A stretch of DNA of 64,000 nt from Massilia polaris (lineage in GTDB: Bacteria > Pseudomonadota > Gammaproteobacteria > Burkholderiales > Burkholderiaceae_D): positions 124,001 through 188,000 of the forward strand of contig NZ_JABBGG010000004.1 in the NCBI RefSeq assembly GCF_012927275.1, read 5' to 3'. Numbering within the stretch: the stretch's first letter is position 1; every line of letters begins with the position of its first letter. Shown piece by piece: positions 1,445 through 31,473 of this stretch. A program made the translations under genes and the position numbers. Under the pieces are notes generated by a model. It ran no database searches, was not told the DNA's origin, and saw only the letters and a program-made list of their open reading frames with translations.

Positions 1445-1500
1445 TTCCCAAAATCGCGGTCAGGCCACCATTGGAGGAGCATTGCTGGCTCCAAAAAAAT

Positions 1501-1554
1501 CGGGGTCTGTCCCCGGGGACAGACCCCGGGGACAGACCCCGGGGACAGACCGGG
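1501..1554. repeat. palindrome and 3x13-bp tandem repeat
   Basis: CGGGGTCTGT is followed by three exact head-to-tail copies of CCCCGGGGACAGA (1511-1523, 1524-1536, 1537-1549) and a partial fourth. The first 29 bases form a near-perfect palindrome. The same 29 bases, with one change, occur at 23362-23390 inside the subtilase gene, so this is a dispersed repeat. It lies between yqeY and the dnaG promoter region. Confidence 0.85.
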
Positions 1555-1628
1555 TCACGTTGACCCTGATTTTGAGATTGGCGCCAAAAAGATCACCCAA
1601 GGAAATCCATGTCGCGTATTGTTTCAGC

Positions 1629-1658
1629 TCAACACTGTTACTTGCGCGCCGGTATAGT
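1629..1658 (+). promoter_or_regulatory. weak candidate promoter of dnaG
   Basis: TCAACA (1629-1634, four of six -35 matches) and TATAGT (1653-1658, five of six -10 matches) are spaced by 18 bases, 30 bases upstream of the GTG start of dnaG. Assigned by motif only. Confidence 0.35.
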
Positions 1659-1688
1659 CTGACCTAAGACAAAGACTGTTCATCAAAC

Positions 1689-3485
1689 GTGATTCCACAA
1701 TCGTTCATTACCGACCTGCTCAACCGTGTCGACATCGTCGACGTCGTCGGCCGCTACGTGCAGCTGAAGAAGGGCGGCGCGAATTACCAGGGCCTGTGCC
1801 CCTTCCATAACGAAAAGTCCCCCAGCTTTACCGTCAGTCCAACCAAGCAGTTCTACCATTGCTTCGGCTGCGGCGCCCATGGCACCTCGATCGGCTTCCT
1901 GATCGAGTACTCGGGAATGGGCTTCGTCGACGCGGTTAAGGACCTGGCCCAGAACGTCGGCATGGTCGTGCCCGATGCGGACGACAAGATCCCACCAGCG
2001 CAGCGCGCCCAGAACCAGGCCCAGGCGCTGGCACTGTCCGACGCGATGACGCGCGCCTGCGATTTTTACCGCGGCCAGCTGCGCACTGCGCCAAACGCCA
2101 TCGAGTACCTGAAAAAACGTGGCCTGACCGGCGAAATCTGCGCCCGTTTCGGCATGGGCTACGCGCCGAGCGGCTGGGACAACCTCCGCTCGGTGTTCCC
2201 TGAATACGATGCGCTGGCGCTGGTCGAATCCGGCCTCGTCATCGACAAGGTCGACGAAGAAGGCAACAAGCATAAGCGGTACGACCGTTTCCGCGAACGC
2301 ATCATGTTCCCGATCCGCAACGTCAAAGGCCAGGTGATCGGCTTCGGCGGCCGCGTCCTCGACTCGGGCGAACCCAAATACCTGAACTCCCCGGAAACAC
2401 CCTTGTTCCAGAAAGGCCTGGAACTGTACGGCCTGTTCGAAGCGCGCCAGGCGATCCGCGACGCCGGTTACGTCCTGGTGACGGAAGGCTACATGGACGT
2501 CGTCGCGCTCGCGCAACTTGGTTTCCCGCAAGCGGTCGCCACCCTGGGCACCGCATGCACCAGTACCCACGTGCAAAAACTGCTGCGCCAGATCGACACG
2601 GTCATCTTCAGTTTCGACGGCGACAAGGCCGGTCGCAAGGCTGCGCGCCGCGCGCTGGAAGCCTGTCTGCCGCAAGTGACCGACGACAAGATCATCAAGT
2701 TCCTGTTCCTGCCGCAAGAGCACGACCCGGACAGCTTCGTGCGCGAGCGCGGCGCTGATGCGTTCGAGCAAGAAATCCATGAAGCCATGCCGTTGTCGCA
2801 ATTCTTGCTGCGCGAAGTGTCGGCCGAACATGACTTGTCGGAACCTGAAGGGCGGGCGCGGGTCCAATTCGATGCCAAGCCTTTGCTGCAGTCGATGGCG
2901 CCGTCGGCACTGCGCCTGCAAATCGTGCGCGGCCTTGCCGGCCTGACGGAATCGACGCCGGCTGAAATCGAAGGCTTGTTCGAGCTGGCCAAGCCGGTCG
3001 CCGTCGCGCGCAAGGCGCCGCCGCGGCATGGAAGGCCGCAACCGGTCGGGCTGGAAGCGCAAATCATTCGCCATCTGGTCGCCCACCCGCCGCTCGCGCT
3101 CGAGCTGGACGAGTCGGCTCTCCAGGCATTCAACCATTTCGGGCCGGAATCCGCCGAGCGCCTGTTGCAACTAGTTGCCGCCGCGCAGGCACTGGGACCG
3201 AACGGCAGCTTCGCTGCATTGTCTCAGCAACTAAAGAACGAAGGCGCGGATTACGACAGCCTGATCGCCGAGATTGCCTCCGAACCCGAGTCCGATTTCG
3301 ATAGCGTTAGATTATGGCTTGCAGGAGCTGTGAGGCAGATCAAGATGGACGCATTAAAACACGAGCTCAATCAATTGTTTTCATCCGGATTGACCTCAGA
3401 TCAGGTGGGAATTCGCTACCGGGAAATCACCGCGATGCAAGACCAACTGTTGCGTGAAACGCAAGCCGAACTGAGCGCGCGCTAG
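1689..3485 (+). CDS. dnaG: DNA primase
   Basis: A 598-residue DnaG with a GTG start reading MIPQSFITDLLNRVDIVDVV, the family's conserved beginning. The N-terminal CHC2 zinc-binding domain carries C37, H40, C58 and C61. The central TOPRIM catalytic core shows the conserved Glu in VTEGYMDVVAL (about residue 267) and the acidic DGD of FSFDGDKAG (about 309). The C-terminal third (about 440-598) corresponds to the helical domain that binds the DnaB helicase. The enzyme makes RNA primers at the replication fork. It lies downstream of yqeY, separated by the 13-bp tandem repeat, and upstream of rpoD. Confidence 0.97.
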   Translation: MIPQSFITDLLNRVDIVDVVGRYVQLKKGGANYQGLCPFHNEKSPSFTVSPTKQFYHCFGCGAHGTSIGFLIEYSGMGFVDAVKDLAQNVGMVVPDADDKIPPAQRAQNQAQALALSDAMTRACDFYRGQLRTAPNAIEYLKKRGLTGEICARFGMGYAPSGWDNLRSVFPEYDALALVESGLVIDKVDEEGNKHKRYDRFRERIMFPIRNVKGQVIGFGGRVLDSGEPKYLNSPETPLFQKGLELYGLFEARQAIRDAGYVLVTEGYMDVVALAQLGFPQAVATLGTACTSTHVQKLLRQIDTVIFSFDGDKAGRKAARRALEACLPQVTDDKIIKFLFLPQEHDPDSFVRERGADAFEQEIHEAMPLSQFLLREVSAEHDLSEPEGRARVQFDAKPLLQSMAPSALRLQIVRGLAGLTESTPAEIEGLFELAKPVAVARKAPPRHGRPQPVGLEAQIIRHLVAHPPLALELDESALQAFNHFGPESAERLLQLVAAAQALGPNGSFAALSQQLKNEGADYDSLIAEIASEPESDFDSVRLWLAGAVRQIKMDALKHELNQLFSSGLTSDQVGIRYREITAMQDQLLRETQAELSAR

Positions 3486-3541
3486 CTGCGTCAACCGGCC
3501 CTGGATGTTGGCCGTTAGGCACTAGAAAAAGCCGGGGTGCG

Positions 3542-3550
3542 TGCTATAAT
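3542..3550 (+). promoter_or_regulatory. extended -10 promoter upstream of rpoD
   Basis: TGCTATAAT is a perfect extended -10 (TG-N-TATAAT) just after dnaG. No good -35 is seen, as is normal for extended -10 promoters. Transcription from here would give rpoD a leader of about 370 bases. Confidence 0.6.
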
Positions 3551-3928
3551 AAAACGCTAAGTGTTGCTTTCTTAGAAATCTTATTTTTTAACAGGAAGTG
3601 AACTTCTTCCTCTAAGTTAGGCTCTTGATCGGCGCGGATGGTGGCGCCGGCGGCCAGGGCCAGCTTTGGTTGAGACAGCGCGATGCGCGTCACGGTAAAA
3701 ATGCCATCAACCACTACGGCCTTGCCCCCGCCCGCCGTTTTGTCGCAGCCGGCTTCTGCCGCCAGGCCGTTGCCGGCTGCGGCATACGGCGTGCGGCGAT
3801 GCGCGGATCTGCCTGCAAGGTGATGTAAAGGTGTAATGAGTGCAGCAATGCCGGACTGGCCCCAAAGGTGGGTCCGGAACGTAGGGCCAGCAACAAATTT
3901 TACTTAAACCATCGTAAAGCTAGTCGTT
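3551..3928 (+). other. long untranslated leader of rpoD
   Basis: No convincing gene is seen in these 378 bases. A short open frame at 3625-3828 has no family resemblance. Close to the rpoD start is a possible stem-loop, CTGGCCC (3856-3862) with GGGCCAG (3884-3890), followed by an A/T-rich run. Whether the leader has a regulatory role is unknown. Confidence 0.5.
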
Positions 3929-6190
<2,262 letters not shown>

Positions 6191-21741: not shown

Positions 21742-22467
21742 TCAGTTCGATCCGCTTGCGCCGGCCGAGCCATTGCCGTTAGCCGAGCCGCTCGCGCTGA
21801 CCGATGGCTGCACCTCAACCGATTTCGCCGCATTGACCGCTGCCTGCTTGCTGCCGCGCGCGCTGCTGCGTGCCGTCGCCGCGCTGGCGCTGGCGTAGTC
21901 GCGGGTGTTTTGCGCCTGTTCACGCACGCCCGTGCCGACTGGCTGGGCGACGCCGCGCACGCCTTGCGCGGCATCGCCCACCATGCTGGCGTTCCCGTCG
22001 AGGCCGACCGATGCATTGCCGCTGCCCGAGCCGCTGGCCGAGCCCTGCGCGCCGCGCGCGGTGTCCGCCATCGCCGGCGCCGCCTGGCTTGCGGTGTCCT
22101 TGCCGCCGCGGAACCAGCCGAACAGGCCGCCCGAGCCGCTGCCGCTGGCCTTGCCTTCAGCGGCTGCCTCCTTCGATGCGTTGCCGACGAGGCTGCCCGA
22201 GCCATTGCCGCTTGCCTCGGCGGATTTGCGGACGTCGCTGGCATCGATTGCCTGCGTCGAAGAGCGCGCGCTGCCGATCAGCGAGCCGCTGTTGCCCATC
22301 GAGCCCATGCCGCCCATCTGGCCGCCGATGCTGCCCGCGCCGCCGATCATGCCGCCCACGGAACCGCCGATCGCTCCGCCGCGCCCCAGCAGTTGTGCGT
22401 GCGCCGAAAAAGCCATGCTGATGGACAGGACGAGGACAGCTTGCGTGACGATGGTGACTGGTTTCAT
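21742..22467 (-). CDS. secreted Gly/Ser/Ala-rich low-complexity protein
   Basis: A 241-residue protein with a signal peptide (MKPVTIVTQAVLVLSISMAFSAHA) and a mature part of low complexity: a Gly-rich block (GRGGAIGGSVGGMIGGAGSIGGQMGG) and repeated GSGSG and SASGS motifs. ATG 22467 is supported by AAGGAGAACC upstream. The gene runs in the same direction as the subtilase gene, 102 bases behind it, but has its own ECF-type promoter (22516-22544) of the same type as those of the subtilase and sigma genes. It is therefore probably a member of that stress regulon, perhaps a structural envelope protein or a substrate of the protease. Confidence 0.7.
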   Translation of the reverse strand: MKPVTIVTQAVLVLSISMAFSAHAQLLGRGGAIGGSVGGMIGGAGSIGGQMGGMGSMGNSGSLIGSARSSTQAIDASDVRKSAEASGNGSGSLVGNASKEAAAEGKASGSGSGGLFGWFRGGKDTASQAAPAMADTARGAQGSASGSGSGNASVGLDGNASMVGDAAQGVRGVAQPVGTGVREQAQNTRDYASASAATARSSARGSKQAAVNAAKSVEVQPSVSASGSANGNGSAGASGSN

Positions 22468-22515
22468 GTTGGTTCTCCTTGGAAGTGCCGCAGACAATCT
22501 GCAGCTGTTGAAAGG

Positions 22516-22544
22516 AAAACGTATGAGCTCAGCGGTTTATTCCA
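22516..22544 (-). promoter_or_regulatory. ECF-type promoter of the Gly/Ser-rich protein gene
   Basis: On the minus strand TGGAAT (22544-22539), a spacer of exactly 17 bases and CGTTTT (22521-22516). This matches the two divergent promoters at 23971-24016 in both elements and in spacing. The predicted start is near 22509, 42 bases before the ATG. Confidence 0.6.
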
Positions 22545-22569
22545 TCGATCTGAAATTTTTTTTAGAAAT

Positions 22570-23931
22570 TTATCGGAACGCGGAGGGATCGTTGCGGAAA
22601 GCCATTCCAACCACGCCGTAACCGATCTCGTTGCTCACCGAATTCGGCGCGCCGCCGGCCGCCTGCTTTGCCAGCGCATCGATCGCGGACCTGGCCGCGG
22701 CGGCGGACGGCGCCGGCACCGACGGCGCCAGCATGGCCGCGACAATCGGCGCGGCGAACGAGGTGCCGCGCATCGTGCGATACGGCGGGCGGCCGGTCGA
22801 GGCGCTGACCATCTGGTTGCCGGGCGCCGCAAACATTACCTGCGGCCCGCGCGCCGCTTCCGGCAGGGTGCGTCCGCGCTTGTCGACCCCGGTCACGCCG
22901 ATCACGCCGCGGTAGCTTGCCGGATACAGCGGAGGCGCGGCCGGCCCATCATTGCCCACCGCGGCGACCAGCACATGGCCGCGCCGAACCATCGCCGCCA
23001 CCACCCGCTCCAACAGGATGTTGGGAGGCCCGACGATGCTCATGTTGATCACGCCAACCTGTTCGGCGGCGAGCCACGCGAGCGCGCCGGCGATCTTGTC
23101 GGCCGAGCCGCCGGTGGCGCTGTCGCAATAAATATCGGCGGCATACAGCAGTGCGGACGGCGCCACGCCGCGAAACGGCGCGGCTTCCCCGACCATCAGC
23201 GCGGCGACAGCCGTGCCGTGCGGAGCCGGGCGCGCGGCCCCGTCGCAGCCCCAGCGCCGGATGCCCGCGCCGCGAAACACCGGGTGGCCACCGTCCACGC
23301 CGCTGTCGACCAGGCCGATTTTGACGGCGCTTGCCGGGTTCCCGCCTGGCCTCGCCGCGATCGGGGTCTGTCCCCGGGGACGGACCCCGGTCGCGCCGGC
23401 CGTCGCACCCGCGTCCAGCGGCCGCGCCGAGCTGCCTGTATAGATATGGTTGAAATCGTAGGAGCCTTCCGGATCGAGGGCGCGCAGTTTTTCCAGCTCG
23501 GCCGCGATGTCGGCGCTGTCCGGCACGCGCAGCACCACCACGGCGCCGAGCTCGTCCAGCGCCTGTTCGCGCGCCACCTCCATGCCGGCCTTGCGCGCGG
23601 CGGCCAGTCCCGCAGGGCTCGGCGCCCACGCCAGGATCTCGCGCCGCACGATCGGTTCGCCGCGCGGATCGGCTTCGAGCACATCGCGATGCAGGCGCAG
23701 CAGGCGGCCCACCTGGCCGAGCCGCAGCTCACCCAGGTTGACGAGGTCGGCCGACCCCAGCAGTCGTTCGCCGCGGCTGCGCAGCTGGCCGGTGTCGAGC
23801 GGGCCGAGGCGCTCGGGCAGGGGCAGGTTCAGCGACGGCACGCGCAACTGCGCCTGGGCGCTGGCGCTGCCCAGCGCAAGAGTAAGTGCTAACGCCGCCG
23901 ATGCCGCACGGAAGGGATAATTGAGCTTCAT
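22570..23931 (-). CDS. S8 family serine peptidase (subtilase)
   Basis: A 453-residue secreted protease with a signal peptide (to about ASAQA). The catalytic triad is complete: D209 in GLVDSGVD, H238 in PHGTAVAAL and S391 in GTSFAAP. The oxyanion Asn is in AVGNDGP (N327). Residues 30-165 form an unusual N-terminal region that precedes the catalytic domain and could be a propeptide. Residues 182-191 (GVRPRGQTPI) are encoded by a copy of a palindromic intergenic repeat (23362-23390). The gene is divergent from the ECF sigma operon and shares its palindromic promoter, so it is probably controlled by that sigma factor. Confidence 0.88.
   Translation of the reverse strand: MKLNYPFRAASAALALTLALGSASAQAQLRVPSLNLPLPERLGPLDTGQLRSRGERLLGSADLVNLGELRLGQVGRLLRLHRDVLEADPRGEPIVRREILAWAPSPAGLAAARKAGMEVAREQALDELGAVVVLRVPDSADIAAELEKLRALDPEGSYDFNHIYTGSSARPLDAGATAGATGVRPRGQTPIAARPGGNPASAVKIGLVDSGVDGGHPVFRGAGIRRWGCDGAARPAPHGTAVAALMVGEAAPFRGVAPSALLYAADIYCDSATGGSADKIAGALAWLAAEQVGVINMSIVGPPNILLERVVAAMVRRGHVLVAAVGNDGPAAPPLYPASYRGVIGVTGVDKRGRTLPEAARGPQVMFAAPGNQMVSASTGRPPYRTMRGTSFAAPIVAAMLAPSVPAPSAAAARSAIDALAKQAAGGAPNSVSNEIGYGVVGMAFRNDPSAFR
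23362..23390. repeat. 29-bp palindromic repeat inside the subtilase gene
   Basis: Differs by one base from the palindrome at 1501-1529. Core GGGGTCTGTCCCCGGGGAC. It is read in frame by the subtilase gene as ten extra residues just before the catalytic Asp strand. Confidence 0.85.
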
Positions 23932-23970
23932 GGCCGGATGATAATATAGAGAAATCGGAAATCCTGACGA

Positions 23971-24016
23971 GTAAACGTTCGGGACAGGGAATAAAATCCC
24001 TAGCCGGATCGTTTAC
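23971..24016. promoter_or_regulatory. divergent palindromic ECF promoters (sigma operon and subtilase)
   Basis: Plus strand: GGGAAT (23987-23992), 17 bases, CGTTTAC (24010-24016). Minus strand: GGGATT (24000-23995), 17 bases, CGTTTAC (23977-23971). The two -35 elements overlap in the palindrome GGGAATAAAATCCC, so the whole 46 bases are symmetric. GGAA/CGTT-type elements are typical of ECF sigma factors. Confidence 0.7.
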
Positions 24017-24025
24017 CTGCTATCC

Positions 24026-24532
24026 ATGACTTTTACCGCCACATCGCTTCCTACCCAGATTGCCGCCTTGCTGCCGCGCCTGCGCCGTTTCGCCCGCACC
24101 ATCACGTTCAATCGCGAGGATGCGGACGACCTGGTGCAGATCGCGGTGGAGCGGGCGCTGAACCGAAGTGCGCAGTGGGAAGCGGGCACGCGGCTGGACA
24201 GCTGGATCTTCCGGATCATGAAGAATGCCTGGATTGACGAAGTCCGCTCGCGCATCCGCCGCGACGCCGTGTTCGCGCCGGAGGAAGCGGGCGAGCATGT
24301 CGGCGACGATTACGCGGAAGCCCACCAGCAGCGCATGGCGATCCAGAAAGCCATCAGCCTGCTGTCGGAGGACCACCGGATCGTGATCGGCCTGGTGCTG
24401 GTGGACGGCCTGCCTTACAAGGAGGCGGCGGAAGTGCTGGAAGTACCGATGGGGACCCTGACCAGCCGGCTGGCGCGGGCACGCGAAGCCCTGCAGGGTT
24501 TGTTATCCGATCAAGCGAGGAGCGCATCATGA
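24026..24532 (+). CDS. ECF-family RNA polymerase sigma factor
   Basis: A 168-residue ECF sigma factor with only regions 2 and 4. Region 2 is at about 15-85 (RRFARTITFNREDADDLVQIAVERAL, then LDSWIFRIMKNAWIDEVRSR). Region 4 is at about 105-160 (LSEDHRIVIGLVLVDGLPYKEAAEVLEVPMGTLTSRLARAREAL). ATG 24026 is the only possible start. It lies about 9 bases after the predicted -10, so the mRNA would be nearly leaderless. The stop overlaps the anti-sigma start (ATGA). Autoregulation is predicted from the shared promoter motif. Confidence 0.93.
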   Translation: MTFTATSLPTQIAALLPRLRRFARTITFNREDADDLVQIAVERALNRSAQWEAGTRLDSWIFRIMKNAWIDEVRSRIRRDAVFAPEEAGEHVGDDYAEAHQQRMAIQKAISLLSEDHRIVIGLVLVDGLPYKEAAEVLEVPMGTLTSRLARAREALQGLLSDQARSAS

Positions 24533-25266
24533 AGTTTTCCGACGAAACCCTGATGGCCTATGCCGACGGCGAACTCGACCCTGCGACCCGCACCGCGGTC
24601 GAGCGCGCCATCCGCAGCGACCCGACCCTGGCCGCCAAGGTCAGGCAGCACACGGCGCTGCGCTCGAACGTCTTCGCCGCGTTCGGCCCGATTGCCGACG
24701 AGCCGGTGCCGCCGCGCCTGACCGCCGCCACGCGCTCCGGCAAGGTGATCCAGCTGAACACCGCGCGCGCCGCGCGCGCCGAGGCGCCCCAGGAAAAGCG
24801 CCGCTGGTCGTGGGCGGAGTGGGGCGGTATCGCGGCCGCGCTGATGGTCGGCGTGCTGGCCGGCGGCGCCGGCGTCATCGGCTTGCAGGATCAGCCGCAG
24901 CTTGCCGCCACCCCCGGCGGCACGCTGCTGGCGCAGGGCGGCCTCGCCGTCGCGCTGTCGACCCAGCTCGCCGGCGCTGCCGCGCAGGACGCGCCGGTGA
25001 AAATCGGCGTCAGTTTCGAAGCCAGGGATGGCGGCTACTGCCGTACTTTCATGATGGGCGCCGCGGCCGGGCTGGCCTGCCGTAACGGCGCCGAGTGGAA
25101 AGTGCCGCTCATGGCGCAGGCCGCAAGCGGTGCGGCCGGCGCCTACCGCCAGGCCGGCAGCGAGATGCCGCCAGTCGTGCTGGACGCGATCGATACACGG
25201 ATTTCGGGCCAGACGCTGGATGCGAAGGCGGAAGAGGCGGCGCGCGCGCGCGGCTGGCAGCGCTAG
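24529..25266 (+). CDS. membrane anti-sigma factor
   Basis: A 245-residue protein translationally coupled to the sigma gene (4-base overlap). The N-terminal 60 residues (FSDETLMAYADGELDPATRTAVERAI) form the sigma-binding anti-sigma domain without the HxxxCxxC zinc motif. One transmembrane helix lies at about 98-118 (WGGIAAALMVGVLAGGAGVIGL). A periplasmic domain of about 125 residues contains two Cys (GGYCRTF, GLACRNG) that could form a disulphide sensor. It presumably holds the ECF sigma factor at the membrane until an envelope signal arrives. Confidence 0.88.
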   Translation: MKFSDETLMAYADGELDPATRTAVERAIRSDPTLAAKVRQHTALRSNVFAAFGPIADEPVPPRLTAATRSGKVIQLNTARAARAEAPQEKRRWSWAEWGGIAAALMVGVLAGGAGVIGLQDQPQLAATPGGTLLAQGGLAVALSTQLAGAAAQDAPVKIGVSFEARDGGYCRTFMMGAAAGLACRNGAEWKVPLMAQAASGAAGAYRQAGSEMPPVVLDAIDTRISGQTLDAKAEEAARARGWQR

Positions 25267-27057: not shown

Positions 27058-29133
27058 TCAGCGAAGCGGCGCGCCAATCTCCACCCGCGAAATTCCCAGT
27101 CCCAGTTCGCGGATATCGCCGGACCATCCCAGTTCTTTCGGCGACACCGGTTGCGGCACGTCGATCGTCACGTCCTTCTGCTTGCCATCGGTCTCGAACT
27201 GCAGGAACACCTCGTGGGGATGCGGGCCCAGTTTCACCCGCGCCTCCGCCGCACCGACCCTCACCACGAAGTCCTTGCCCTCGTTCGGCCCGAACGCCCG
27301 CATGGTCAGGAACAGGTTCACCCGCTTCGGCAGCGTCTCCCTGAAGTGCAGCCGCACCTGCCCGGTATTCGACCAGCGCCCCCAATCCTCCGCGCCCGCC
27401 AGCCCCTCGGCGCCGGCCAGCACACCGTTGTCGAGCGAACCCGAGAACGTGGCCGCGCCAAGCGCCCGGTTGTTCGGGGCGTACAGCGCGTACTGCGTTT
27501 CCCTGAATGACGGCGTCATCGTTGAAGGCATGCGGTAGTCGCCGATGACCAGCAGCCAGTGCTTCAGCGCCGGCATCGCGTAGATTTCGGCGCGGCGTTC
27601 GGCCGGCAGCACCATCGACATGGCGCCTGGCGCATCGACATGGAAGCGCGCGCGCAGCAGTTCGCCATGGTTGTCTCCGACGATGCGCAACTGGTTGCGC
27701 TGCGCCGCGCCGAGGTGGCCGTGGGCGAAGCGCCCGGCGTCGTCGTACACGCTGGCCACCCGCGCCCGCGCCATCTGCGCAGCGATGATGGGTTCACCAT
27801 TGACGAGGTACAGCGGCATGAAGAGCAGCAGGAAGGCGATGCCGCCCAGCGCACTGTTCCATGCCCACAGGGCCAGCACGAGCACTGCGGCGCCGATCAC
27901 CAGTGCGGCCATCGATGCCGGCTGGCCCATTCCAAGCGCGATGATCTCCGGGCTATCGGCCAGCACGAACACGTAGGCCGGCGGCAGCGCGACGCACGCG
28001 TAAGCGATGGCGCACGCCAGCAGCGCCGCGATCGCCCACGGCAGCACGGCGCGTGTCCGTCGCCGCGCACCGCCGGCGTGTGCGGCGGCGATCATCACCG
28101 GAAGGATCAGGGCAAAGGTGTAGTAGCGAACGTGCAGGCGCTTGCCGTCCAGCGGTCCGTAGCCGGCGGTCGACGCCGTGTAGAGCACCGTCAGCGCCAG
28201 TGCGGCGCCCATCATCAGCACCGTATAGGCCATCAGCGCGCTTACCTGCGGTGCGGCGCTCGCGCGCGCCGTCCGGCTCATGCCATGGTGCAGCAGGGCC
28301 GCCAGCGGAACCGCAAACAACAGCGCAAGCATCATCAGGTGTCCCTGGAGGCTGAACCACGCGGCCGGAAGCATCGTCAGCAAGGTCGTGCCGGTGTTCG
28401 CGCCGTTGCTGGCCTGGTTGCCGTAGAAGCTGCCAAGCAGCTGAAGGCCCGCCGCGCCGGCGAACAGATACCCCAGCACGAACTTGACGGCGAATACGGC
28501 AGCGATGTTCAGCAGCGCCGCCGCGACACTCTCAAGCAGTCCGGCCGGATTGGGCCGGCGCGTCCACACGATGTAAGCGATGAACAGCGCCAGCGCGGGA
28601 ATCAGGAACAGGGCGTGCACCTTCACCAGCGTCATCATGCCCAGCACCGCGCCGGTGGCAGCTGCGTACAGCGCCCAGTGCAGGCGGCTGCGCGCGAGAG
28701 CGATCCACGTCAGCACCGCGAATCCAAAGAAGTACATCGACTCCGGCATGAAGTAAGCCGCATAGGTGCCGGTTGGCGCCGCGACGCAGATCAGCGCCGC
28801 CAGCATCGCGACGCGCCTGGCGGCGAATTCGCGCGTGGCCAGGTAGATGAAGGGCGCCGAGCCGACGAAGAACAGCAGGTTGAGATAGCGCGCGCAATCG
28901 AGGAACGCGTCGCCGCACGCATTCGTCAGCCCGAACACCGACAGGTACAGGTACGAGGGAATTGTCACGTCGCGCAGGGGCAGCAGGCGCGCAAAGCGGC
29001 TGTAGATCTGCTCGTCGGCGAACACCGATGGATACGCGCCGATATGGCGCGAGGCGATGTAGGCGAACAGGACGACAAGCGCGAGGATAAACGCCATTTC
29101 TGCGCGGCGGTCGCGCAGGATGAATTTTTTCAT
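27058..29133 (-). CDS. polytopic membrane glycosyltransferase-like protein with C-terminal beta domain
   Basis: A 691-residue protein. About twelve hydrophobic segments are spread over residues 12-480, with the first periplasmic loop containing a conserved acidic motif (VFADEQIYSRFARLLP), as in GT-C enzymes such as GT39 or ArnT types. The last 110 residues (from WSNTGQVRLHF) form a soluble beta-rich domain that is also found at the end of phosphoglycerol-transferase-like membrane enzymes (DUF7024-like). It is a paralogue of the protein at 29392-31473, with which it is divergent. A lipid-linked sugar or phosphoglycerol donor is likely. The substrate is unknown. Confidence 0.7.
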   Translation of the reverse strand: MKKFILRDRRAEMAFILALVVLFAYIASRHIGAYPSVFADEQIYSRFARLLPLRDVTIPSYLYLSVFGLTNACGDAFLDCARYLNLLFFVGSAPFIYLATREFAARRVAMLAALICVAAPTGTYAAYFMPESMYFFGFAVLTWIALARSRLHWALYAAATGAVLGMMTLVKVHALFLIPALALFIAYIVWTRRPNPAGLLESVAAALLNIAAVFAVKFVLGYLFAGAAGLQLLGSFYGNQASNGANTGTTLLTMLPAAWFSLQGHLMMLALLFAVPLAALLHHGMSRTARASAAPQVSALMAYTVLMMGAALALTVLYTASTAGYGPLDGKRLHVRYYTFALILPVMIAAAHAGGARRRTRAVLPWAIAALLACAIAYACVALPPAYVFVLADSPEIIALGMGQPASMAALVIGAAVLVLALWAWNSALGGIAFLLLFMPLYLVNGEPIIAAQMARARVASVYDDAGRFAHGHLGAAQRNQLRIVGDNHGELLRARFHVDAPGAMSMVLPAERRAEIYAMPALKHWLLVIGDYRMPSTMTPSFRETQYALYAPNNRALGAATFSGSLDNGVLAGAEGLAGAEDWGRWSNTGQVRLHFRETLPKRVNLFLTMRAFGPNEGKDFVVRVGAAEARVKLGPHPHEVFLQFETDGKQKDVTIDVPQPVSPKELGWSGDIRELGLGISRVEIGAPLR

Positions 29134-29391: not shown

Positions 29392-31473
29392 ATGACATTA
29401 CGCTGGCCGCAGGCAAGGCTGACCCAACTGGCTGACCGCTATGCGTTCGCTGTGGCGCTTGCCGCCGTCTTCTTCTATTTCATCTGGCGCAATTCGGGCC
29501 TGTATCCGATGGTGTTCGCCGACGAATGGCTCTACAGCAGCTCGGCGCGCCTGCTTCCTTTCGACAAATCGATCCTGCCGTCCTACCTGTTCCTCGGCGT
29601 GTACCGGCTGACCAACTCCTGCGGTCCCGGATTCCTCGACTGCGCGCGCATCCTCAACGCCGCTCTGCTGGTCGGCGCCGCGCCGTTCATCTACCTGATC
29701 GCGCGCCAGGTCTGCAGCCGCGCCAGTGCCGCGGTGCTGGCGCTGGCCGCCATACTCGCGCCGGTCAGTTCGTTTACGGCCTACTTCATGCCCGAGACGA
29801 TGTATTTCTTCGCATTCTTCGTTTTCGCATGGGCCGCCCTCGCGCGCACTTCGGCGCCGCCGCTGGTCTATGGGCTGGCGACCGGTGCGCTGCTCGGGCT
29901 GATGAGCGCGATCAAGGTGCACGCGCTGTTCCTGCTGGCGGCGCACCTGGCGTTCATCCTGTACGTTTGCCTTGCGCAATACCGCAACGACGGATGGTTG
30001 CGCCGCGCGCTGATGATGATGGCAGCGGCGGTGGTGGCGATGGTCATAGTGAGGCTGGGCGTTGGATACGCGGTCGCTGGCCGCGCGGGCCTGAACTTCC
30101 TCGGTAATTTTTATGGCACCCACGCCACCAACACGTCCTCGAGCATCGACGCCTTGGTGCGCCTTCTGCCCGCGGCACTTGCCAGCCTCAAAGGGCACAT
30201 GCTGGCGCTGGCGCTGCTGATGTCGCTGCCGCTGGCGACGCTGCTGCTGCATGCCGTCGATCGCCGCGTGCGCGCGCAGTCAACCCCGCAGCAGCGCGCG
30301 CTGCAAGTGTTTGCGCTGCTGATGCTGGGCGCAGCAGGCGCCATGACGGTGATGTTCACCGCGACTATCGCGTCGGCCGGACCGCTCGAAGGCGTCCGCC
30401 TGCACCAGCGTTACTACGATTTCGCGTTTCCACTGCTGCTGGTGATCGCGGCGGCGCCGCTGGCGCTGCCCGCAGCCCGCCAATCGCTGGCCCTGCGCGC
30501 GCTGGTCGCGCTGCCGCTTGCTGCCGCCGTCCTGTACGCGGCCCGCGTGATCCCGGCCCAGTACTCGATCGGCCTTGTCGACACGCCGGAGCTGTCTGTA
30601 CTGACACAATACCCCTTGGTGCTTGACCTGACCGTTGGTTTGGCGTTGCTGGCGCTGGCCGTATGGACCCTGCAGCGCCGGGCAGGCATCCTGCTGTTCG
30701 TGTTCGCCGTACTCCCCGTTACCGCATACAACACCGACCGCAGCGTGCGCGAGATTCAGGCCCGCTCGCTCGCGCCGAACGACTACGACAATGCGGGCAT
30801 CCTGGCCAGCAAATACCTGGACCGCCAGCAGACCAGCAAGCTGACAGTGGCAGGTGAGGGCGGCGCCGGACTGACGCGCGCGCTGTTCCACATCGATAAT
30901 TCGGAAACATCGACCCACGAACTGCGCCCCGGCGCGCCGTTCGCGCGCGAGGACCTGCCGCCGCGCCAGGATTGGGTGCTGATCGTCGGCGACCATCCGC
31001 TGCCGGAAGATGTCGCGCCAGTAGTGAAGACGGCGCAATTTACGCTTGTGAAGGTTGAGGCCGAACATGCCGCGCTCGCCAGGATTGAATTCACCAAGCC
31101 GCTGGCAGGCGGCGTGCTGACCGCTACTGAAGGACTATCCAACCCCGAAGGCTGGGGTGTGTGGTCGGACGGCACGGTGGTACGGCTGCGCTTCGCCAAA
31201 CCGCTGCCGCGCAAGCTCAATATCCTGCTGAAGGCGAACAGCTTCGCGGCCGCTCCGGACCAGGAGTTCGTGATGGTGGCTGGCAGCGAACGCCGGCCCT
31301 TCCACCTGACCGGCACTGCGCAGGACCGTTTCTTCCAGTTCGAGACCGACGGGACGGAGCAGGAGGTGACGATCGAGATACCCAAGCCTGTTTCCCCGCG
31401 CTCGGTGGGCTACGGCCCCGACGACCGCTTGCTCGGGATCGGATTCACCAGCATCGAGATTGGCACGCGCTGA
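29392..31473 (+). CDS. polytopic membrane glycosyltransferase-like protein with C-terminal beta domain (paralogue)
   Basis: A 693-residue protein with the same layout as the divergent gene at 27058-29133: first loop VFADEWLYSSSARLLPFD, a conserved pattern LTNSCGPGFLDCARILNA, a periplasmic FYGTHATNTSSSID region, about twelve membrane segments, and the C-terminal beta domain from VWSDGTVVRLRF to GIGFTSIEIG. GT-C-type fold and an envelope location are inferred from the topology and the acidic first loop. Its presence beside GtrA, GT2, Wzm and Wzt points to surface glycan or lipid-carrier glycosylation. Confidence 0.7.
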   Translation: MTLRWPQARLTQLADRYAFAVALAAVFFYFIWRNSGLYPMVFADEWLYSSSARLLPFDKSILPSYLFLGVYRLTNSCGPGFLDCARILNAALLVGAAPFIYLIARQVCSRASAAVLALAAILAPVSSFTAYFMPETMYFFAFFVFAWAALARTSAPPLVYGLATGALLGLMSAIKVHALFLLAAHLAFILYVCLAQYRNDGWLRRALMMMAAAVVAMVIVRLGVGYAVAGRAGLNFLGNFYGTHATNTSSSIDALVRLLPAALASLKGHMLALALLMSLPLATLLLHAVDRRVRAQSTPQQRALQVFALLMLGAAGAMTVMFTATIASAGPLEGVRLHQRYYDFAFPLLLVIAAAPLALPAARQSLALRALVALPLAAAVLYAARVIPAQYSIGLVDTPELSVLTQYPLVLDLTVGLALLALAVWTLQRRAGILLFVFAVLPVTAYNTDRSVREIQARSLAPNDYDNAGILASKYLDRQQTSKLTVAGEGGAGLTRALFHIDNSETSTHELRPGAPFAREDLPPRQDWVLIVGDHPLPEDVAPVVKTAQFTLVKVEAEHAALARIEFTKPLAGGVLTATEGLSNPEGWGVWSDGTVVRLRFAKPLPRKLNILLKANSFAAAPDQEFVMVAGSERRPFHLTGTAQDRFFQFETDGTEQEVTIEIPKPVSPRSVGYGPDDRLLGIGFTSIEIGTR

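Follow-up and report, generated by a model that had tools for sequence, protein, structure and literature searches.

The window analysed here is a stretch of 64,000 nucleotides from Massilia polaris and contains a four-gene locus centred on an ECF sigma factor. The sigma factor (168 residues; positions 24026–24532, + strand) has the Pfam domains Sigma70_r2 at residues 13–76 and Sigma70_r4_2 at residues 103–156. Only regions 2 and 4 are present, with nothing between them, as in ECF (group IV) sigma factors, and its nearest sequences of solved structure are SigH and other ECF sigma factors. The next gene, which overlaps that of the sigma factor (24529–25266, + strand), encodes a membrane protein of 245 residues that matches the NCBIfam antisigma model and, weakly and below the cut-off, zf-HC2. 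The protein is composed of an N-terminal helical domain, a single hydrophobic helix at approximately residues 101–119, and a C-terminal domain, in which C171, C184, and the neighbouring residues are invariant. A fold search with this protein gave no match with E < 0.001 and returned only weak matches to ChrR and MucA. Its position and transmembrane helix are those of the putative cognate anti-sigma factor of an ECF (group IV) system. The opposite strand encodes a secreted S8 subtilase of 453 residues (22570–23931, - strand; Pfam Peptidase_S8, 3.7e-29), the Asp/His/Ser triad of which, D209, H238, and S391, is conserved at 97–100%. The fourth gene (21742–22467, - strand) encodes a secreted, cysteine-free protein of 241 residues rich in glycine, alanine, and serine, which has no match in Pfam or NCBIfam. 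A comparable protein is encoded at this place in 67 loci, and all 67 that were examined have a signal peptide, a mature part free of cysteine, and a glycine content of about 20%.

Between the genes of the sigma factor and the subtilase lies a 46-bp element (23971–24016, assigned to neither strand) of the form GTAAACG-N9-GGGAATAAAATCCC-N9-CGTTTAC. Its central segment GGGAATAAAATCCC (23987–24000) is common to two opposed ECF-type promoters, one directed rightward into the sigma/anti-sigma operon and the other leftward into the subtilase gene. The rightward promoter has the -35 element GGAATAAA (23988–23995, + strand) and the -10 element CGTTTAC (24010–24016, + strand). The -35 element of the leftward promoter, GGATTTT (23993–23999, - strand), overlaps that of the sigma promoter, and its -10 element is again CGTTTAC (23971–23977, - strand). 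The two -10 elements are 40 bp apart end to end, and the part held in common is the -35. Written with 17-bp spacers, the two promoters are GGGAAT-N17-CGTTTAC (23987–24016, + strand) and GGGATT-N17-CGTTTAC (23971–24000, - strand), and a third, in front of the fourth gene, is TGGAAT-N17-CGTTTTC (22515–22544, - strand); all three motifs of the original prediction are present and its 17-bp spacings are exact. The near-palindrome of 46 bp that it reported is also there, with 34 of the 46 positions self-complementary, but the symmetry is unexceptional within the window, where a few other 46-mers score 34–40. Since these equal or exceed the element, symmetry by itself was dropped as a measure of significance, and it is conservation that appears to lift the divergent element beyond chance.

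Conservation was assessed in 80 Burkholderiales loci with sigma factor homologues that are 61–98% identical; the loci have common ancestry, and the counts are not independent. Only the core served as the anchor of the alignment, and therefore the counts of AACG and CGTT are not built into it. The pattern AACG-N10-GGAAKAAAATCC-N10-CGTT is almost invariant and its spacing is fixed, and most spacer positions carry little information. The -35 of the sigma promoter is conserved as GGAWKAAA, and CGTT of its -10 is kept in 79–80 of the 80 loci. The linkage of the genes is tight: the anti-sigma gene follows the sigma gene in all 80 loci, and the divergent subtilase is present in 78. One of the two loci without it is cut by the end of a contig (L084), and the other, L046 from Duganella sp. 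CF517, has different genes there: those of the subtilase and the Gly-rich protein are replaced by genes for a regulator of the LacI type and a polysaccharide deacetylase-like protein (1500–4000). Despite the loss of the subtilase, L046 retains an intact bidirectional element, which counts against a bidirectional promoter; the loss may be recent. An element almost invariant in 80 relatives, together with a third site that recurs at the same place in most of them, is beyond chance, and conservation strengthens the observation further than the original prediction could. Sequence and conservation together thus delineate three putative promoters of one type, two of which overlap on the same -35, at tightly linked genes.

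The third promoter (22515–22544, - strand; TGGAATAAA-N14-CGTTTTC) has the same -35 motif as the sigma promoter and precedes the gene of the Gly/Ala/Ser-rich protein. In most loci it immediately precedes the next gene after that of the subtilase, and its position and spacing are conserved. When both strands of every locus were scanned strictly, the site was found in 53 relatives and the window, with a single forward match off position. A looser search, which required GGA and CGTT and left the remaining letters free, found it in 68 loci including the window; the offset between the boxes is the same in all 68, although three offsets were allowed. The third site provides an internal control for the divergent one. 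It keeps GGAAKAAA-N14-CGTT, yet AACG and ATCC each occur at none of the 68 third sites, whereas AACG is found in 65 and ATCC in 64 of 67 divergent sites. Recognition of the rightward type therefore needs neither, and AACG and ATCC of the divergent site most likely serve a promoter on the protease side, a leftward promoter being the simplest reason for their retention. The -35 variants (GGAAT, GGAAG, and GGATT) and the base after CGTT covary between the sigma and third promoters more than in shuffles; ancestry in common contributes to these parallel changes, which are therefore taken as supporting evidence only. Just upstream of the third -35 is an A/T-rich stretch (22545–22570, - strand), AAAAATTTTT-like across loci, which is possibly an UP element.

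Because the conserved dyad has its centre between divergent genes, the element could instead be an operator at which a dimeric transcription factor governs both of them, with the resemblance to ECF promoters being secondary. However, the third site has the same -35, -10, and spacing and yet no dyad, the dyad symmetry in the spacers outside the -10 elements and core shows no excess over shuffles in the 80 loci, and no DNA-binding regulator besides the sigma factor was recognised among the neighbouring genes examined. We regard an operator as highly improbable, and the reading of the 46-bp element as a genuine bidirectional promoter, used by the sigma factor encoded next to it, is the one developed below.

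In 59 of 80 loci, 12–19 bp separate the rightward CGTT from the start codon of the sigma gene (24016–24026 in the window). In 12 distant loci (L078, L080, L082, L083, L088, L091, L095, L097, L099, L102, L104, and L105), the leftward CGTT and the subtilase start are 12–15 bp apart. Since transcription from ECF promoters is expected to begin at about this distance from CGTT, leaderless mRNAs are likely on the sigma side and, in the distant relatives, also on the subtilase side. In the Massilia of the window, the subtilase start is 46 bp from the leftward CGTT. A sigma-70-like scan identified TATATTATC (23940–23948, - strand) as a possible housekeeping -10 for the subtilase of Oxalobacteraceae, in which the longer gap separating the ECF promoter from the subtilase start codon holds a conserved TATATTATC, TATACTATC, or TATATGATC. 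TATAYTATC or TATATGATC occurs in 36 of 81 loci, nearly all from Oxalobacteraceae, 26–31 bp past the leftward CGTT, and the element possibly supplies basal protease. This conservation would also fit an arrangement in which only the rightward promoter depends on the sigma factor, the subtilase is driven by the housekeeping element, and the leftward half is retained for some other reason. Nevertheless, the leftward AACG and ATCC are still conserved in those species, and the distant loci lack TATATTATC and have subtilase starts close to CGTT. A purely housekeeping subtilase promoter is therefore judged very unlikely, and dependence of both directions on the sigma factor is preferred.

The transcript of the third gene is predicted to have a different 5' end. 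A hairpin, GCTGCAGA-TTG-TCTGCGGC (22487–22505, - strand), is present at this place in 68 loci, in which it takes 59 distinct sequences and usually begins 15–16 bp after CGTT. Folded singly for each sequence, the hairpins are more stable (-13.0 kcal/mol) than segments drawn at random from those loci (-9.4 kcal/mol), and their loop length varies between loci. The variable stem at a fixed position is as expected for a structure kept through compensating changes, and the hairpin may stabilise the mRNA. Downstream of it lies a strong Shine-Dalgarno-like sequence, AAGGAGAA (22473–22480, - strand).

The reach of the sigma factor was estimated from genome scans. The binding consensus offered originally, slightly widened to GGRAWT-N16..18-CGTTT, had 13 matches in the 4.5-Mb Massilia-type genome to which the window belongs (its closest relatives with names are Massilia agrisoli and M. 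soli, with sigma factors 97–98% identical) against 7 in the reversed control, and it missed the third site. It is thus too loose, and unconvincing as the definition of a genome-wide regulon. The sigma and third promoters are described by GGAWKAAA-N14-CGTT, and the -35 on the protease side, GGATTTT, is consistently different; its departure from the rightward -35 at the A-tract positions counts against the bidirectional reading. The stricter pattern GGAWKAAA-N14-CGTTYWC matches this genome only twice, at the sigma promoter and at the third site, and has no match in the control. The sigma factor is present in 13 of 148 relatives. Nine of these 13 contain an exact match to the 40-bp bidirectional pattern, which is found in no genome without the sigma factor; variants such as AAAGTCC or ATATTCC explain at least some of the remainder. 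Across the order, three of 399 genomes match the pattern. Strict one-way matches in genomes with the sigma factor are the sites of the locus plus one extra in a single genome (G007), and genomes without it have scattered single matches, as chance predicts. A relaxed motif was also scanned in five genomes; the recurring extra matches that were examined sit within open reading frames, including a dnaA-like one, and were therefore rejected as regulon members. With nearly no sites elsewhere genome-wide, the regulon appears to be confined to the sigma locus. Phylogenetic footprinting, the parallel -35 and -10 changes, and the near-absence of other sites all support a small autoregulated regulon, as had been proposed, consisting of three promoters and four genes. 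That the sigma factor transcribes its own operon is predicted from an operon motif that is conserved and common to the third promoter, and the dependence of the regulon on it is likewise predicted from sequence.

The locus resembles autoregulated ECF sigma/anti-sigma operons (group IV, sigma-70 family) in its two-domain sigma factor, adjacent membrane anti-sigma factor, and an own promoter bearing the target motif with a CGT-type -10. It differs from them in that the autoregulatory and target-gene promoters have a -35 in common and the regulon is apparently one locus. EcfG (ECF15), the general stress sigma factor of Alphaproteobacteria, reads GGAAC-N16-CGTT (PMC3892343), which is alike in its CGTT -10 and GGAA-type -35, and the PhyR sigma-like Pfam domain matches the sigma factor described here. 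In contrast to EcfG, the -35 is GGAAKAAA, the neighbours are a membrane anti-sigma factor, the subtilase, and the Gly-rich protein instead of a NepR/PhyR pair, and one locus takes the place of a large regulon. Subtilase genes also lie near the sigma genes of ECF54, which has been treated together with ECFs that lack an anti-sigma factor (PMC8999054), whereas here the anti-sigma gene is invariably present and the subtilase is secreted. Bidirectional promoters of Escherichia coli described by Warman, Grainger and colleagues share the -10, and their directions compete only if one of them is strong (PMC12825309). As in that study, pseudo-symmetric DNA is expected to bind RNA polymerase in either orientation, with possible competition; however, those are E. 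coli promoters generally, with divergent starts from a shared -10, whereas the present ones are back to back on a common -35 and are assigned to an ECF sigma factor. A search of the openly accessible literature found no description of the four-gene unit or of an ECF group with this gene context, and the novelty of an autoregulated ECF promoter made bidirectional through a shared -35 is provisional.

Based on these features, a mechanism can be proposed, and we are quite confident of its basis, a bidirectional ECF promoter and a one-way copy read by the adjacently encoded sigma factor. RNA polymerase carrying the sigma factor would read GGAAKAAA-N14-CGTT rightward to produce the sigma factor and its membrane anti-sigma factor, the overlapping GGATTTT-N15-CGTT leftward to produce the secreted subtilase, and the separate copy to produce the Gly/Ala/Ser-rich protein. 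Presumably, the circuit responds to an envelope signal through the extracytoplasmic domain of the anti-sigma factor; the subtilase may be one of its outputs, or it may act back on the anti-sigma factor. The consistent -35 difference between the two sides suggests unequal promoter strengths. The sigma mRNA, predicted to be leaderless, would yield little of the regulator, and the third mRNA, with its 5' hairpin and strong Shine-Dalgarno sequence, would yield large amounts of secreted product. Because both -35 elements are placed, overlapping, on one 12-bp segment, a bound holoenzyme should exclude a second one. Competition between the directions would follow from the overlapping footprints, and each initiation would serve either the protease or the feedback loop of sigma and anti-sigma factors, so that the sigma factor probably has to split one landing site between its own production and that of the protease.

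We speculate, with rather less than even confidence, that the shared -35 has been selected as an either/or switch in a one-locus circuit conserved across Burkholderiales, a switch that splits initiations between sigma/anti-sigma feedback and protease, limits self-amplification, and fixes the ratio of the products. It is about equally plausible that both directions depend on the sigma factor and do not interfere in practice, the overlap providing compactness and not regulation, as the E. coli bidirectional promoters without competition at basal activity would suggest (PMC12825309). On the other hand, an induced autoregulated sigma factor could attain high occupancy, and the shared 12 bp are retained while the lengths of the flanking leaders vary. 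The locus offers a natural case, retained through deep divergence, in which a sigma factor's own promoter and the promoter of a target gene have overlapping -35 DNA, and it makes the competition of opposed promoters testable as an evolved regulatory device and not a by-product of symmetry. It also provides a recognition consensus and a self-contained unit of sigma factor, anti-sigma factor, secreted protease, and secreted Gly-rich protein, which occurs in many Massilia, Duganella, Roseateles, and relatives. Farther along the window, two divergent genes encode membrane proteins of 691 residues (27058–29133, - strand) and 693 residues (29392–31473, + strand), which share motifs such as YPxVFADE and look like paralogues of each other.
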